Shown here: piece after piece, positions 10,917-50,057 of the stretch
Numbering within the stretch: the first letter of the stretch is position 1
Layout of the letters: every line of letters starts with the position of its first letter
IMG/VR virus record: IMGVR_UViG_3300046411_000702
Span: 1-50,057 of that record
Origin: a virus
Length of the DNA: 50,057 nucleotides
Reading direction: 5' to 3' (one strand)
Translations under genes and position numbers: made by a program
The notes under the pieces: generated by a model
Told to the model about the DNA's origin: nothing
Database searches by the model: none
What the model saw: only the letters and a program-made list of their open reading frames with translations

Positions 10917-10967
10917 ATGGCAATAACATTGATTATAACAACTAAGATGAGAAAGCCAAGTAAATGA
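10917..10967 (+). pseudogene. Deletion remnant of the 9655-type gene, now a 16-codon leader
   Basis: The ribosome site and first 12 bases (ATGGCAATAACA) match the start of the 9655 gene, and ATTATAA plus AGAAAGCCAAG match its last codons; about 240 bases between are missing. What remains is an open 16-codon frame (MAITLIITTKMRKPSK) with AAGGAG upstream and a stop overlapping the next fiber's ATG (ATGA). The next gene has no ribosome site of its own, so this fossil probably serves as a coupled leader peptide. Confidence 0.75.
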
Positions 10968-12358
10968 GTAATGCTCGTAATTTAGCTAATTTATTAAATA
11001 CTGACACAACCATAGCTACTGCTGATGTAGCCAATGGTGGTATTACTACTGCTAAACTAGCAGATGACGCAGTAACCTCAGCTAAATTAGATACTAATAT
11101 CGCTATAGGTGGTACTTTAGGTGTAACTGGAGAAACTACTTTAGCTACACATCTTAATCTTGGAGATGATGATAAGATAAAACTTGGTGCAAGTGGTGAT
11201 TTAGAAATTTATCATGATGGTAGTAATTCATATGTAGATGATACTGGAACTGGAGATTTACGGCTTAGAGGAAATGACCAAGTTAGAATACAGAAATATA
11301 CTGGCGAAAATATGATCACTTGTAACGTAGATGATGGGGTACAATTATATCATGACAATGTAGAAAAATTTGTAACGACTTCAGGTGGAGCAAAAGTAAC
11401 TGGTGACCTTGAAGTTACTGATGACATTGATTTAAATTCTGATGGAGCAAAAATAACCTTTGGTGGCTCAAGTGAAACAATAACTCTTGAGCATGTTGCT
11501 GATACTGGTCTTATATTACAAGGAAGTGGAACAAACACACAATTAAGTCTTTTATCATTTCATACATCAAATGGCACAATACCAGATTTAAGACTTGGAA
11601 AATCAAGTAGTAATACAGTAGGAACATTTGCAGAAACAGCAAATGGAGAATCAATAGGTCAAATAAGATTTACTGGTCAAGATTCTAATAATGGCACAAG
11701 AAGTGCTGGGCAAATTTCTGTAATACAATCTGCTAATTCAACAGGTTCTACTGTTCCTGCATTTATGAGATTTGATAATAGTGGTTCAGAACGTATGCGT
11801 ATAGTTGATGAAGGTCTTTTAATAAACACTACTGATACTATGCATACTGGTGTTCCATGTGCTTTAGAGGTCTTTCAACACTCTGGTAGTGGTTTTGTAG
11901 CAAGATTTAAAGGTGGAACTGCTGGTAATGAAGTTATGGCAGTACATAACTTTGCCACAAGTGGTACAAGACTATTAATAGCATTTAAAACTAGTGGTAG
12001 TACTGGTACACTTGTTGGTCGTATTACAAGTGATGGTTCTACAACAAATTATGCAACATCTAGTGACTACAGATTAAAAGAAAATGTAACCTATGATTTT
12101 GATGCCACAACTAGACTTAAACAGCTTAAACCTGCAAGATTTAATTGGATTGCAGATGAAGATAATAAAACAGTAGATGGTTTCATTGCCCACGAAGTAT
12201 CAAGTATAGTGCCTGAAGCAGTCAATGGCGAGAAAGATGCAGTAGATGCAGATGGTAATATTGACCCACAAGGCATTGACCAAAGCAAACTTGTGCCTTT
12301 ACTCGTTAAGACCATACAAGAATTAGAAGCAAGAATAACAGTATTGGAGACTGCATGA
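10964..12358 (+). CDS. Tail fiber with C-terminal S74 self-cleaving chaperone
   Basis: 464 aa. N-terminal TAKLADDAVTSAKL repeat, LGVTGETTLATHL shaft, then NSGSERMRIVDEGLLINT, and from S367 (SDYRLKENV) a peptidase S74 intramolecular chaperone with FIAHEVSSIVPEAV and a C-terminal coiled coil. S74 domains trimerise the fiber and then cut themselves off before the conserved Ser. The same domain is found at the end of the next gene, diverged at synonymous sites, so the duplication is old. Translation is probably coupled to the 16-codon remnant upstream. Confidence 0.9.
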   Translation: MSNARNLANLLNTDTTIATADVANGGITTAKLADDAVTSAKLDTNIAIGGTLGVTGETTLATHLNLGDDDKIKLGASGDLEIYHDGSNSYVDDTGTGDLRLRGNDQVRIQKYTGENMITCNVDDGVQLYHDNVEKFVTTSGGAKVTGDLEVTDDIDLNSDGAKITFGGSSETITLEHVADTGLILQGSGTNTQLSLLSFHTSNGTIPDLRLGKSSSNTVGTFAETANGESIGQIRFTGQDSNNGTRSAGQISVIQSANSTGSTVPAFMRFDNSGSERMRIVDEGLLINTTDTMHTGVPCALEVFQHSGSGFVARFKGGTAGNEVMAVHNFATSGTRLLIAFKTSGSTGTLVGRITSDGSTTNYATSSDYRLKENVTYDFDATTRLKQLKPARFNWIADEDNKTVDGFIAHEVSSIVPEAVNGEKDAVDADGNIDPQGIDQSKLVPLLVKTIQELEARITVLETA

Positions 12359-13808
12359 GTTATTTAGGCAATAATCCAAATAAAGGCTCATTCTTCCAAC
12401 AAAAGTTGGCAGGAGATGGCTCTACAACATCTTTTACTTTATTACAATCTGTTACTGATGGTTCACAATTATTAGTAACTATAGGTAATGTTATTCAAGA
12501 AGAAGGTAATGGAAAAGCTTATACTGCATCAGGTGCTACTCTTACATTTGATTCTGCCCCTACTAATGGTGATGTAATAGTTGTTAGATACTTAGGTAGA
12601 TCACTAGATACACCAACAACTTATGCTACACAGATAACTTTTAAATATGTTGCTACTAATGGGCAAACTGCTTTTACTGGTTCAGATGCGAATGGAATTA
12701 CACTTTCTTATACGATTGGTAGTGTAGATGTATATTTAAATGGTGTACACTTAGATACTACTGATTTTACAGAAACGAATGAAAGCACGATTACATTAGC
12801 ATCAGGAGCAACAACTAGTGATGAGGTGGTAATAGTAGCCAAGAGGACTATAACCCTAGCTGACGTCGTTCCTAAGAGTGCAGGAGGTACTTTTGCAGGT
12901 AATGTTATAGCAGGTGGCAATCTTACAGTTAATGGTGCTTTTACTTCTCAAGGGATTGACGATAATGCTAATGCTATAGCTATAACTATAGATAGTGATG
13001 AAGATATTACAATCACTAAACAAGGCACTAATACAACTGATTTAAGATTTGCTAATAGTACTAACGATTTTGGTGGTAATATTAAATACGACCACAATAG
13101 TGGTATAATGAAATTTGATGTTCATAATTCTGAACGTATGCGTATTGATGCTTCAGGAAATTTAGGTATTGGTACTACTCCAACTGCTAAGTTATCGTTA
13201 CCTGCACAAGCATCAGGAGATAGTGGTGTTGCTCGTTTTGCTATAGAAAGTGCTGTTGATTCAAATGATTTTACTATTGCTCAATATGAAGATAGCAATG
13301 GAACGTATACACAAATTGGTCAAAATGTTTCTCTTAATAGTGGAGGAAGCACTACTGTTTTAGATAGTGGTCATAAAACTGCATCTATGTTTTTTGATGG
13401 TAGGGGTAATGGTGCATTAATGTTTCATACTGGTGGAACTAATGCTAATTCTGAACGTATGCGTATTGATTCGTCAGGCAATGTCATTATTGGGGAAACC
13501 TCACAAATAAATGGTGGTAATCTAAACCTTGCGACATCTGCTTCAGATGCAGTGCTATCTTTTTTGTGTAGGTCAACAACAGACTCACATCACCCTAAAA
13601 TAATAATGCAAAAATCATCAACTAATAGTGGTAACTTTGCATCAACAGCAGATGGAGAATTATTAGGAAGTATAATATTTAGAGGTGTAAACACTTCTTC
13701 TGTTTCAGATATTGGTGCTCAGATAATTGCTGTGCAAAATGGAACATCAAGTTCAACAGTGCCTACTGATTTAGTTTTTAATACAACTGAAAATGAACGT
13801 ATGCGTAT
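11789..13808 (+). repeat. Four dispersed exact 14-mers (GAACGTATGCGTAT) in fiber genes
   Basis: Copies at 11789-11802, 13132-13145, 13453-13466 and 13795-13808, all encoding ERMRI in the same frame. The Arg codons are CGT although neighbouring genes mostly use AGA, so the DNA itself seems conserved beyond the protein motif. Confidence 0.85.
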
Positions 13809-14445
13809 TACTGACGGTGGCAATGTAATAGTACATAGCGATCTTTGTGTAGGTACATCTACTGCTGATGGGAAGATAACTGTTTCAGGTAGTACTAATC
13901 CACTTGTAAGATTTACACATACACAAAATGCTAATGAAAAGTTATTAATACTAACACACACCTATGCTAGTGGCAGTCAAGAAGCAACAATGATTGAATT
14001 TCGTGATTCAGGTGGAACTATAAGAGGTTCTATTAAAACAAGTAGTTTTGGAACAAGTTATGCTACATCTTCAGACTACAGATTAAAAGAATCAATTACA
14101 TACGACTTTGATGCTACTACAAGATTAAAGCAATTAAAGCCATGTAGATTTAACTTTATAGGAGTTGCAGATAATACTGTTGATGGCTTCTTAGCACATG
14201 AGGTGTCAAGCATTGTACCAGAAGCTATAATTGGTGATAAAGATGCTATGACAGAAGAAGTCCTTTATGTTGATGGTGATGAAATACCTGATGGTAAAAA
14301 GATTGGTGATGTAAAAGAAGCGTCAGTGATTGACCCACAAGGAATAGATCAATCTAAAATTGTGCCTTTACTCACAAAGGCATTTCAAGAAGCATTAGCA
14401 AGAATAGATACACTTGAAGCAGAAGTAAAAGCACTTAAAGGATAG
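12355..14445 (+). CDS. Large tail fiber with C-terminal S74 self-cleaving chaperone
   Basis: 696 aa, overlapping the previous stop by 4 bases (ATGA). N-terminal YLGNNPNKGSFFQQKLAGDGSTTSF is a common fiber-attachment module also present, in variant form, in the next gene. Two TFKYVATNGQTAFTG-type beta repeats follow, then GAFTSQGIDDNANAIAITID, three ERMRI units (residues about 260-485), and the S74 domain from S573 (SDYRLKESI) to the end. It probably forms a trimeric host-binding fiber whose chaperone is removed after folding. Confidence 0.9.
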   Translation: MSYLGNNPNKGSFFQQKLAGDGSTTSFTLLQSVTDGSQLLVTIGNVIQEEGNGKAYTASGATLTFDSAPTNGDVIVVRYLGRSLDTPTTYATQITFKYVATNGQTAFTGSDANGITLSYTIGSVDVYLNGVHLDTTDFTETNESTITLASGATTSDEVVIVAKRTITLADVVPKSAGGTFAGNVIAGGNLTVNGAFTSQGIDDNANAIAITIDSDEDITITKQGTNTTDLRFANSTNDFGGNIKYDHNSGIMKFDVHNSERMRIDASGNLGIGTTPTAKLSLPAQASGDSGVARFAIESAVDSNDFTIAQYEDSNGTYTQIGQNVSLNSGGSTTVLDSGHKTASMFFDGRGNGALMFHTGGTNANSERMRIDSSGNVIIGETSQINGGNLNLATSASDAVLSFLCRSTTDSHHPKIIMQKSSTNSGNFASTADGELLGSIIFRGVNTSSVSDIGAQIIAVQNGTSSSTVPTDLVFNTTENERMRITDGGNVIVHSDLCVGTSTADGKITVSGSTNPLVRFTHTQNANEKLLILTHTYASGSQEATMIEFRDSGGTIRGSIKTSSFGTSYATSSDYRLKESITYDFDATTRLKQLKPCRFNFIGVADNTVDGFLAHEVSSIVPEAIIGDKDAMTEEVLYVDGDEIPDGKKIGDVKEASVIDPQGIDQSKIVPLLTKAFQEALARIDTLEAEVKALKG

Positions 14446-14448
14446 TTA

Positions 14449-16410
14449 ATGGCATATTTAGGAAATACACCATCTGAAACATTTCATCAGGCAACTAGCC
14501 AAGTATTCAATGGCGATGGTAGTACAACTGCTTTTACTTTAGAAAAAAGAGTTAACAGAGCAGAGGAAATAGAAGTATTTGTAAATAATATTCAGCAACA
14601 ACCAACAGTTGCATACTCTGCCAATAATACTACTTTAACATTTACAGAAGCACCTGATAGTGCAACTGGTAATATCTATGTAGTTTATAGAATGTTTGCA
14701 CAACAAAACACATTCAATGCCTTACATGATTTTACAGATGCAGTAACTATGGCTAGTACGTTAGCCGTTACTGGCAATACTACAATGGCAGGTACTTTGG
14801 GGGTTACTGGAAATACAACAGTAACTGGCTCTGTAATCACATCAACTGGTTTTTCAGTTGGAAATACTGCTGTATTAGGTCAGGAAATAGATGTTTCAAG
14901 TGGAGATTTTACACTTGACGTAGCAGGGGATATAATCCTTGATGCTGATGGTGGAGATGTAAAAATTAATGATGGTGGTTCAGCAAGATTTCATATTCTT
15001 ACAAGTGCTACAGAAACACAGCTTTTCAATCAAGTACAAGATGCAGATATTGTTTTCAAAGGAGATGATGGTGGTTCAGCCATAACTGCACTTACTCTTG
15101 ATATGTCAGATGCAGGTTCTGCTTATTTTAATGGTAATATATATTTTGCTGAATATTTAACTCATGCAGGTGATACTGATACATATTTACAGTATACTAC
15201 AAATCAAATTGACCTTTTTGCAGGAAATAAAAGGGGAATAACTCTTACAGCTAATGAAGTTATTATTAATCAAAATGGTGTAGATTTAGACTTTAATGTT
15301 GAAACAGATAATGACACTAGTACACTTTTTGTTCAAGGTAGCTCAGATCGCGTGGGCATTGGGACTCCATCTCCTGATGATAGATTTCATGTAAAATTAT
15401 CTAGTGGTCAAAGAGTAGCTAGATTTGAAAGCAATGATAATACTTCAGCACACATAGCATTTAAAGCACCAAACACATCTTTGATGCCAACTGTAGGTGT
15501 AAAAGATGAGGTTTTATATTTCAGTACTGGAGATAGTTATGAAAGAGCAAGAATTTTAGGACCTAGTACTTCTCATAGTGGATTTTTCAAGATATCAGAT
15601 TCAGGAAGTTATCAGGGTAGTACTGGGGCTTTTCATGAGATTCGTTCTTCTAGTAGTAACCAATCAGGAGTTGTTATTGGTGCGTCACACGCAAGTTTTT
15701 CAGCTAATGTTATTTCAATAATTACTCAGAGAGCAAATAGTAGTAGTTTTCGTTATATTCAAGGCTTATCAAGCAATACTGGAGATACAGACTACAGCGT
15801 AAGAGGAGATGGCGAAGTCTTTGCTGATGGTTCTTTTAACTCAGGTGGTGCTGACTATGCTGAAATGTTTGAATGGAAAGATGGCAACACAAGTTCAGAA
15901 GATAGAGTAGGCAAGACAGTCGTTCTTGATGGAAATCAAATAAGGCTATCTACAAGTGATGATGCACAAGCAACTATTATAGGTGTTGTTTCTGCAAGAC
16001 CAGTAGTTCTTGGAGATGCACAAAGCGACAAATGGAAAGATAAATATGAAACAGACAGCTATGGCAGATATGTTTTTGAGGAATACACACAAACAGAATG
16101 GACAATAGAAACTGATGATGGTGCTAAAGAATTAAAGTCATATCAAACAGATATGATACCAAGTGACGTTACTGTTCCTGATGATGCAATAGTTACATCT
16201 AAAGATCAAAATGGTGATAATCTCAAAAGAAGAAAACTTAATTCATCATTTGATGCAAGTAAAACCTATATTCCTAGAGAAGATAGAAAAGAGTTTAGTG
16301 CCATAGGACTAGTTGGAAAACTTAGAGTCGCTGTTGGTCAAACTATAGGCGATAGATGGATTAAGATGAGAGAAATATCTGATACAGTACATGAATATTT
16401 AGTAAGATAA
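14449..16410 (+). CDS. Tail fiber with C-terminal G2-type self-cleaving chaperone
   Basis: 653 aa. N-terminal MAYLGNTPSETFHQATSQVFNGD attachment module related to the preceding fiber, a beta shaft (TLAVTGNTTMAG), QGSSDRVGIGTPSPDDRF, and from about residue 464 (GGADYAEMFEWKDGN) a domain matching the peptidase G2 intramolecular chaperone of phage appendages, with GVVSARPVVLGDA and a C-terminal GLVGKLRVAVGQTIGDRW. Its chaperone class is different from the two S74 fibers before it, so the three fibers were assembled from unrelated modules. Confidence 0.88.
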   Translation: MAYLGNTPSETFHQATSQVFNGDGSTTAFTLEKRVNRAEEIEVFVNNIQQQPTVAYSANNTTLTFTEAPDSATGNIYVVYRMFAQQNTFNALHDFTDAVTMASTLAVTGNTTMAGTLGVTGNTTVTGSVITSTGFSVGNTAVLGQEIDVSSGDFTLDVAGDIILDADGGDVKINDGGSARFHILTSATETQLFNQVQDADIVFKGDDGGSAITALTLDMSDAGSAYFNGNIYFAEYLTHAGDTDTYLQYTTNQIDLFAGNKRGITLTANEVIINQNGVDLDFNVETDNDTSTLFVQGSSDRVGIGTPSPDDRFHVKLSSGQRVARFESNDNTSAHIAFKAPNTSLMPTVGVKDEVLYFSTGDSYERARILGPSTSHSGFFKISDSGSYQGSTGAFHEIRSSSSNQSGVVIGASHASFSANVISIITQRANSSSFRYIQGLSSNTGDTDYSVRGDGEVFADGSFNSGGADYAEMFEWKDGNTSSEDRVGKTVVLDGNQIRLSTSDDAQATIIGVVSARPVVLGDAQSDKWKDKYETDSYGRYVFEEYTQTEWTIETDDGAKELKSYQTDMIPSDVTVPDDAIVTSKDQNGDNLKRRKLNSSFDASKTYIPREDRKEFSAIGLVGKLRVAVGQTIGDRWIKMREISDTVHEYLVR

Positions 16411-18473: not shown

Positions 18474-18878
18474 ATGAGTGCACAAAGAGGTGGGGCTTTA
18501 CTTTTAAAAATGGATATTAGTGGAACGATGACTACAATAGGAGGTCTGCGTTCAACTTCTATCACAATAAATGACGAAGCAGTTGACATAACTAATAAAG
18601 ATAGTGGTTCTTCAAGAACTTTACTGCCCTCTGGAGGGGTTTTAAGTATGTCTATATCAGCTTCAGGTGTTTTTACTGATGCGACTTCAGAAACAACTTT
18701 GAGGTCAAAAGTACACCAATCAACATTTGAATCTTATAATGTCGTTATTCCAGATTTAGGTACATACGCAGGCACATTCATGATTGCAAGTCTTGAATAT
18801 GCAGGAGAATTTAATGGCGAAGTCACATATTCTATTACATTAGAGTCAAGTGGTGCTATTACGTTCACATCTGCATAA
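18474..18878 (+). CDS. Major tail tube protein
   Basis: 134 aa with AAAGGAG before the ATG. SAQRGGALLLKMDISGTMTTIGGL, ITINDEAVDITNKDSG and a C-terminal GEVTYSITLESSGAITF match the TP901-1/GTA-type major tail protein family. Size and place fit the tube protein. Confidence 0.9.
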   Translation: MSAQRGGALLLKMDISGTMTTIGGLRSTSITINDEAVDITNKDSGSSRTLLPSGGVLSMSISASGVFTDATSETTLRSKVHQSTFESYNVVIPDLGTYAGTFMIASLEYAGEFNGEVTYSITLESSGAITFTSA

Positions 18879-18888
18879 GGAGTAAGAT

Positions 18889-19143
18889 ATGGCTTGGACA
18901 GAGGGAGTAATCAAACATCAAGGGGCAGACGTAATTATATCAAAAAATAATTCGTCAGATACGTTTCAAATGCCTATTGAAGTAAGTTTGAAAGTTGGTG
19001 ATTCGTTTGATTTTGAAAAAAAGAATTATGTAATTAATTCAATAACAAACTCAAGAGATGAATTTTATACAGTGTTAGCAGACGCTAACAATCAACCTAA
19101 ACCAGAAGGGAAAAAGGAAGATGACAAATCCAAAGAGGGGTGA
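18889..19143 (+). CDS. Small protein between tail tube and tail chaperone
   Basis: 84 aa with AAGGAG spaced before the ATG. Beta-rich (VIKHQGADVIISKNNSSDTF, NYVINSITNSRDEFYTVL) with a charged Lys/Asp/Glu C-terminal tail. Probably a small head-tail or tail accessory fold; no family recognised. It overlaps the chaperone gene by 23 bases. Confidence 0.65.
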   Translation: MAWTEGVIKHQGADVIISKNNSSDTFQMPIEVSLKVGDSFDFEKKNYVINSITNSRDEFYTVLADANNQPKPEGKKEDDKSKEG

Positions 19144-19465
19144 AGTAGAGCTACAGTTTGGCGATAAAAAATATCAAGGAAAAATTAATCTTGATACTAT
19201 TATGCGAATTGAAACTATGTTGGGGTGCAGTATTTTTAAGTTAACCCAACAACTCTCAGAGGGTTTATTATCAACTACTGAAATCATTGCGATTATTCAG
19301 CCAGTCCTTAGGAGCAGTTCTGAAAAACTTGAGGAAAAACAAGTAAAAGAACTAGTTTGGAGTTATGGTATAGCGAATGCTATGAGAGAATGTGGCAAGG
19401 TTTTAACTTTAGGTCTTTCATCTGGAGATGAGGGAAAGGAAGAACTGGAGGAGCAGACGACCTAA
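19121..19465 (+). CDS. Tail assembly chaperone, short form (GTA gp10-like)
   Basis: 114 aa. GEVELQFGDKKYQGKINLDTIMRIE, CSIFKLTQQLSEG and VKELVWSYGIANAMRECGK match the gp10-type chaperone of gene transfer agents (Phage_TAC_11 family), which coats the tape measure during tail assembly. A GGGAAAG site in phase near the 3' end allows a -1 shift into the next frame, giving a longer second form, in the manner of lambda gpG and gpGT. Confidence 0.9.
   Translation: MTNPKRGEVELQFGDKKYQGKINLDTIMRIETMLGCSIFKLTQQLSEGLLSTTEIIAIIQPVLRSSSEKLEEKQVKELVWSYGIANAMRECGKVLTLGLSSGDEGKEELEEQTT
19432..19438 (+). promoter_or_regulatory. Programmed -1 frameshift slippery site GGGAAAG
   Basis: The zero-frame codons here are GAG GGA AAG, so the heptamer reads G GGA AAG, the exact X XXY YYZ phase and the same heptamer used in the lambda G-T frameshift. 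Slipping back one base enters the 72-codon frame that ends at 19656. Confidence 0.9.
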
Positions 19466-19656
19466 CTATTCCATGGAATGAGTTTATTAAGCTTGGTTTA
19501 GGTAAAATGATGCTTTCTCCTAATGAATTTTGGGATATGAGTTATTATGAATTTTATCAAGCTTGTGAAGGTTTTGCAGAATTCAACTCAGGGGGTAAGC
19601 CACAACCTCTTACACGAGATGAACTTAACGATTTAATGGAGCAATACCCAGACTAA
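19438..19656 (+). CDS. Tail assembly chaperone, frameshifted C-terminal domain
   Basis: 72 codons in the -1 frame, read only after the GGGAAAG slip: about 106 aa from the zero frame plus this part give a 178-aa fusion. TIPWNEFIKLGLGKMMLSPN, EFWDMSYYEFYQACEGF is the pattern of the small GTA chaperone (Phage_TAC_6 family), normally a separate gene in gene transfer agents. The frame has no start codon before its conserved Trp, which argues for frameshift expression over independent start. The stop overlaps the tape-measure ATG. Confidence 0.88.
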   Translation, partial: GRTGGADDLTIPWNEFIKLGLGKMMLSPNEFWDMSYYEFYQACEGFAEFNSGGKPQPLTRDELNDLMEQYPD

Positions 19657-49672: not shown

Positions 49673-50057
49673 ATGGAATTATTGATAATACAGCGAAAAG
49701 CGAATGGAAGACTTGTTTCGCCAAGAAAAGAGCTTATTGAACAAACAAGAATAAGATCAAGACTTGAAAGTAAATTTTATACTAAATTATTGAAAATATT
49801 TATTCTTATAGGAGACAAAGTATCTGATGATATTTTACAAGGTCAGATAAATCCTAAATCATTAGAAAGAATAGAGCCTCTTATAGGTGATGAGCTAATT
49901 AAACATTACAGAGAAGTAATGCAAATATTTACTGAAAGAAGCTTATCACTTTTTACAAACCTTAAAAGAAGACAAAGAACATTTGAGGAATATGTTCAAA
50001 GCTACATAAGAGAAGTTGGTGGAATGAAAATTACTTCAATTAGTAATACATCAAGAA
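49673..50057 (+). CDS. MuF-like minor head protein, 5' part
   Basis: Start ATG 49673 with GAGGAGG nine bases upstream; reads MELLIIQRKANGRLVSPRKELIEQTRI and remains open to the end, joining the frame at base 2 of the window (residues 1-128 here, 538 in total). The helical segment (FYTKLLKIFILIGDKVSDDIL) is the usual N-terminal arm of this family that contacts the portal, whose gene is 62 bases upstream. Those 62 bases hold no ORF or clear promoter. Confidence 0.9.
   Translation, partial: MELLIIQRKANGRLVSPRKELIEQTRIRSRLESKFYTKLLKIFILIGDKVSDDILQGQINPKSLERIEPLIGDELIKHYREVMQIFTERSLSLFTNLKRRQRTFEEYVQSYIREVGGMKITSISNTSR
50029..50057. repeat. Right copy of 29-bp terminal direct repeat
   Basis: Exact duplicate of bases 1-29; see that entry for the closure argument. 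Confidence 0.9.

Follow-up and report, generated by a model that had tools for sequence, protein, structure and literature searches.

In the tail gene cluster of this phage, two apparent chaperone reading frames overlap and the second appears to lack a start of its own. The question is whether both are made from a single start through a programmed −1 frameshift, as for lambda G/GT, or whether they are separate genes, as in some gene transfer agents (GTAs). The window, by which we mean the whole stretch of 50,057 nucleotides analysed (IMG/VR record IMGVR_UViG_3300046411_000702), derives from a marine phage and has 33% GC over its 50 kb. Positions 1-29 and 50029-50057 are identical, and these 29-base ends suggest a circular or terminally redundant assembly. 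Genes for the head-tail connector, head closure, tail terminator and tail tube lie 5' of the chaperone ORFs, and genes for the tape measure, distal tail, DUF6950 and Phage-tail_3 proteins lie 3' of them (Table 1). An 84-aa ORF without a Pfam match (18889-19143) occupies the interval between the tail tube and chaperone genes. Relatives also have a gap of about 220-250 bases here, and the Paracoccus GTA has none. Further upstream (10964-16410), the capsid and connector genes are separated by three long ORFs that resemble tail fibres and carry Peptidase_S74 or Peptidase_G2 domains, an unusual location for them.

Table 1. Features of the chaperone locus and its flanking tail genes (positions in the window)
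Feature	Coordinates	Strand	Basis or remark
Major tail tube protein	18474..18878	+	PF06199, E 9.6e-36; presumed partner of the T-like domain
Zero-frame ORF, 114 aa, G-like short tail assembly chaperone	19121..19465	+	PF11836 Phage_TAC_11, GTA gp10-type; ATG at 19121
TGA closing the −1 frame, directly 5' of the heptamer	19429..19431	+	Sequence, −1 translation
Slippery heptamer G GGA AAG, in phase	19432..19438	+	Sequence; in-phase equivalent in every scorable relative
−1 extension, 72 codons + TAA, T-like part of predicted fusion	19438..19656	+	PF09550 Phage_TAC_6
Zero-frame stop TAA, terminates short form	19463..19465	+	Sequence
Tail tape-measure protein, 673 aa	19656..21677	+	PF09718 and several tape-measure PHROGs; presumed chaperone client

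The product of the zero-frame ORF scores above the curated Pfam cut-off for PF11836 (E 8.6e-10; 39 bits, cut-off 27.8). Its AlphaFold2 model (pLDDT 83) consists of a beta hairpin and five helices; in BFVD it hits predicted phage tail assembly chaperones with E-values down to 5e-4. Searches by sequence and by fold against solved structures found nothing convincing, the 114-aa model included. Pfam gives this family the title "Phage tail tube protein, GTA-gp10"; despite that title, its position, the frameshift and the predicted fold suggest that it is a chaperone of tail assembly.

The preliminary description placed the heptamer GGGAAAG in G GGA AAG phase, 27 bases before the zero-frame stop, and this is correct to the base, counting from the final base of the heptamer to the final base of the stop. 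Both strands of the 50 kb window taken together contain only this copy of the heptamer. Since the TGA directly upstream shuts the −1 frame, that frame opens exactly at the heptamer. Its TAA (19654-19656) overlaps the tape-measure ATG at 19656 (TAATG). We confirmed the coordinates of the 72-codon extension and of the proposed fusion: a −1 slip after AAG would join 106 and 72 residues into a protein of 178 aa, with the predicted junction ...SGDEGK-GRTGGADDLTIPWNEF... The PF09550 domain is seen only in the −1 frame and not in the zero frame, again above the curated cut-off (E 4.2e-12; 46.7 bits, cut-off 23.4). In an alignment of 32 second domains, F33, W34, G47, P73 and D74 are invariant, and the AlphaFold2 model is a small helical domain (pLDDT 81). 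We looked for an independent start for this domain and found none in the window: the −1 frame has no ATG, GTG or TTG 5' of the domain, and its first ATG (~19508) falls within it.

Conservation was assessed in 80 viral relatives collected using the tail tube protein as query; the 114-aa protein, used directly as a query against viral contigs, returned zero matches. The second domain could be scored in the window itself and in 74 relatives, 75 sequences in all; the chaperone proteins of these relatives are ~25-50% identical to those of the window. In all 75, the second ORF is in the −1 frame relative to the first, and an in-phase heptamer lies in the short stretch bounded 5' by the last −1 stop and 3' by the zero-frame stop. 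The heptamer is thus kept throughout while its letters vary (AAAAAAG in 27, GGGAAAC in 24, GGGAAAG in 20 and AAAAAAA in 6, with a few loci carrying two). A start codon before the second domain is missing in all but a few relatives. Among nonredundant loci, 40 of 40 have the in-phase heptamer; 2.5 would be expected at the frequency with which such heptamers occur in phase farther 5' in these genes (26 in 4011 positions). Judged from this sequence comparison, the arrangement in the window is not chance, because the in-phase heptamer is conserved both in the full set and in the nonredundant loci. Together with the missing second start, this conservation strongly supports the earlier proposal of a lambda-type fusion of two GTA-type chaperone domains.

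The alternative that survives best treats the second domain as a protein of its own, produced by reinitiation or from a non-canonical start such as the ATT at 19468. A Shine-Dalgarno-like GGAGGA run (19448-19453) inside the ORF overlap could conceivably allow rare non-ATG initiation, but the ATT sits 14 bases past it, and no ATG, GTG or TTG precedes the domain in the window or in nearly all relatives. The related GTA genes are indeed separate in Rhodobacterales, with an ATGA joining them; however, separate synthesis gives no reason for all relatives to carry an in-phase heptamer, and we regard it as very unlikely here. Slippage by RNA polymerase rather than by the ribosome is more improbable still: the polymerase could slip on the A runs of 7-9 bases found in some relatives, but the window and many relatives have GGGAAAG or GGGAAAC, with runs of only three A, and the phase G GGA AAZ is a requirement of tandem tRNA slippage. 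That a sequencing error, mutation or assembly artefact split one gene or created a pseudogene, as indels in a single metagenomic contig can do, has next to no probability and is already refuted by conservation, since the identical −1 offset recurs in all scorable relatives and in isolated phages.

We therefore favour, with high confidence, the reading that a single start probably gives rise to two tail assembly chaperones in this phage, via a lambda-type −1 frameshift. Most ribosomes would terminate at 19465 and release the 114-aa gp10-type chaperone, and a minority would slip −1 on G GGA AAG to give the 178-aa protein with an added TAC_6 domain. Both the occurrence of slippage in the window phage and its rate are inferred from the sequence; G_GGA_AAG is highly shift-prone in E. 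coli (PMC5009743). No conserved downstream stimulatory RNA structure was found (mean z −0.62, compared with −1.21 for upstream controls), which would leave the heptamer by itself to set how often ribosomes slip. An upstream Shine-Dalgarno stimulator at dnaX-like spacing was considered and rejected as not consistent. In lambda, gpG and gpGT bind the tape measure and the T part binds the tail subunit (PMC5009743). By analogy, the short form may cover the tape measure, to which the fusion may bring tail tube subunits.

The programmed −1 frameshift of lambda G/GT has been described previously (Levin 1993; Xu, Hendrix and Duda 2004; reviewed in PMC5009743), and the window shares with it the gene order between the tail tube and tape genes, the −1 direction and the heptamer GGGAAAG itself. 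As in lambda, the ORFs overlap, the second ORF is in the −1 frame and without a start, an in-phase X XXY YYZ heptamer is conserved, and the products are a short form and a fusion, which for the window are predicted. The difference lies in the chaperone domains, which in the window are PF11836 and PF09550, the GTA gp10/gp10.1 families. The heptamers GGGAAAC, AAAAAAC and GGGAAAG have also been listed for haloviruses (PMC5009743). The finding in the window phage is real and was correctly read, and it is ordinary in kind, the lambda mechanism being already known; it extends a classic recoding event to chaperone families common to phages and gene transfer agents.

The same junction is present in sequenced phages. 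It reads GGGAAAC in Rhizobium phage RHph_Y3_1, Desulfofustis phage LS06-2018-MD02 and ctuI7215, and GGGAAAA in ctUhy936. Streptomyces phage OnionKnight resembles the window in that its genes 15/16 are annotated as a two-piece joined chaperone product with a TAC_6-like end, and differs in host, in its distant sequence and in its heptamer, GGGAAAC. It is implied by PMC8601537 that most Rhodobacter phages described show the usual chaperone frameshift. In Dinoroseobacter phage R4C, GGGAAAC lies where the annotated tail assembly chaperone ends. An unannotated −1 ORF follows GGGAAACTGA in this phage (MK882925, vB_DshS-R4C; L170:8843-9009) and reaches the tape-measure gene; the extension has no match to PF09550. 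Records annotate such chaperone pairs as two separate ORFs or miss the second, as in R4C.

We used the tail tube gene to fetch ~80 Rhodobacterales GTA clusters for comparison. The RcGTA g10/g10.1 pair belongs to the same two families, has the same order between the tail tube and tape genes, and its second ORF is usually in the −1 frame too. Unlike that of the window, which has no start of its own, this second ORF starts independently, usually at an ATGA or GTGA that overlaps the first stop, and there is no heptamer. In the Paracoccus GTA cluster the two chaperone genes are separate, with an ATGA overlap. A slippery heptamer in the chaperone overlap was found in 0 of the ~80 Rhodobacterales clusters, which mostly have xTGA overlaps that keep the −1 offset; nearly all others have their own start.

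We then considered GTA-like loci outside Rhodobacterales. PF09550 was searched in 337 genomes sampled from Alphaproteobacteria and afterwards in one family and several orders, and loci were called GTA-like if their tail tube, tape or gp12 proteins resembled those of the Paracoccus GTA. This gave 49 loci. Of these 49, 26 have a start codon 5' of the second domain's conserved W, 16 have an in-phase heptamer with no start before the second domain, four have both and three have neither. The preliminary description held that these chaperones are separate genes in GTAs; this is borne out in Rhodobacterales but, given the 16 heptamer-only clusters, not for GTAs as a whole, and is only partly correct. 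Their heptamer is mostly CCCTTTC, and GGGAAAG occurs once (L213). One order has CCCTTTC in 5/5 loci, always 15 bases from the zero-frame stop, and one bacterial family includes both the frameshift and the stop-start type. On a quick FastTree phylogeny of tail tube and gp12 sequences, whose topology is approximate, the two types need ~7 changes compared with a mean of 21 when labels are shuffled.

Several features temper the reading of these loci. CCCTTTC specifies the PF with which the conserved PFPW motif begins, so this signal could partly reflect protein constraint. The Phe codon is TTT in 14/14 CCCTTTC loci and in 13/20 stop-start relatives, a weak test as the loci are related. Furthermore, wherever the stop is TGA, the −1 frame necessarily has an xTG codon there, so in GTA clusters of the heptamer type reinitiation may yield a slightly truncated second domain. 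Tape length was rejected as the cause of the difference between frameshifted and separate genes: short-tape GTA-like clusters carry heptamers too. Tapes in frameshift-type clusters are mostly as short (about 200-236 aa) as in stop-start ones, so short tapes alone do not explain the difference.

In the open-access literature, the RcGTA papers PMC9765227 and PMC11409702 do not mention frameshifting for the chaperone genes, which is no proof of novelty. On balance, we lean towards the view that several alphaproteobacterial GTA lineages still frameshift gp10-gp10.1 (at CCCTTTC or GGGAAAG), whereas the RcGTA lineage of Rhodobacterales is stop-start, with several switches between the two, even within a family. 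This patchy presence of the heptamer among GTA lineages is the most interesting part of the analysis, if modestly so, and raises the question of whether some lineages can do without the frameshifted fusion. Loci with a heptamer and no start between the gp10 and gp10.1 homologues include L207, L210, L213, L219, L222, L229 and L264-L271.
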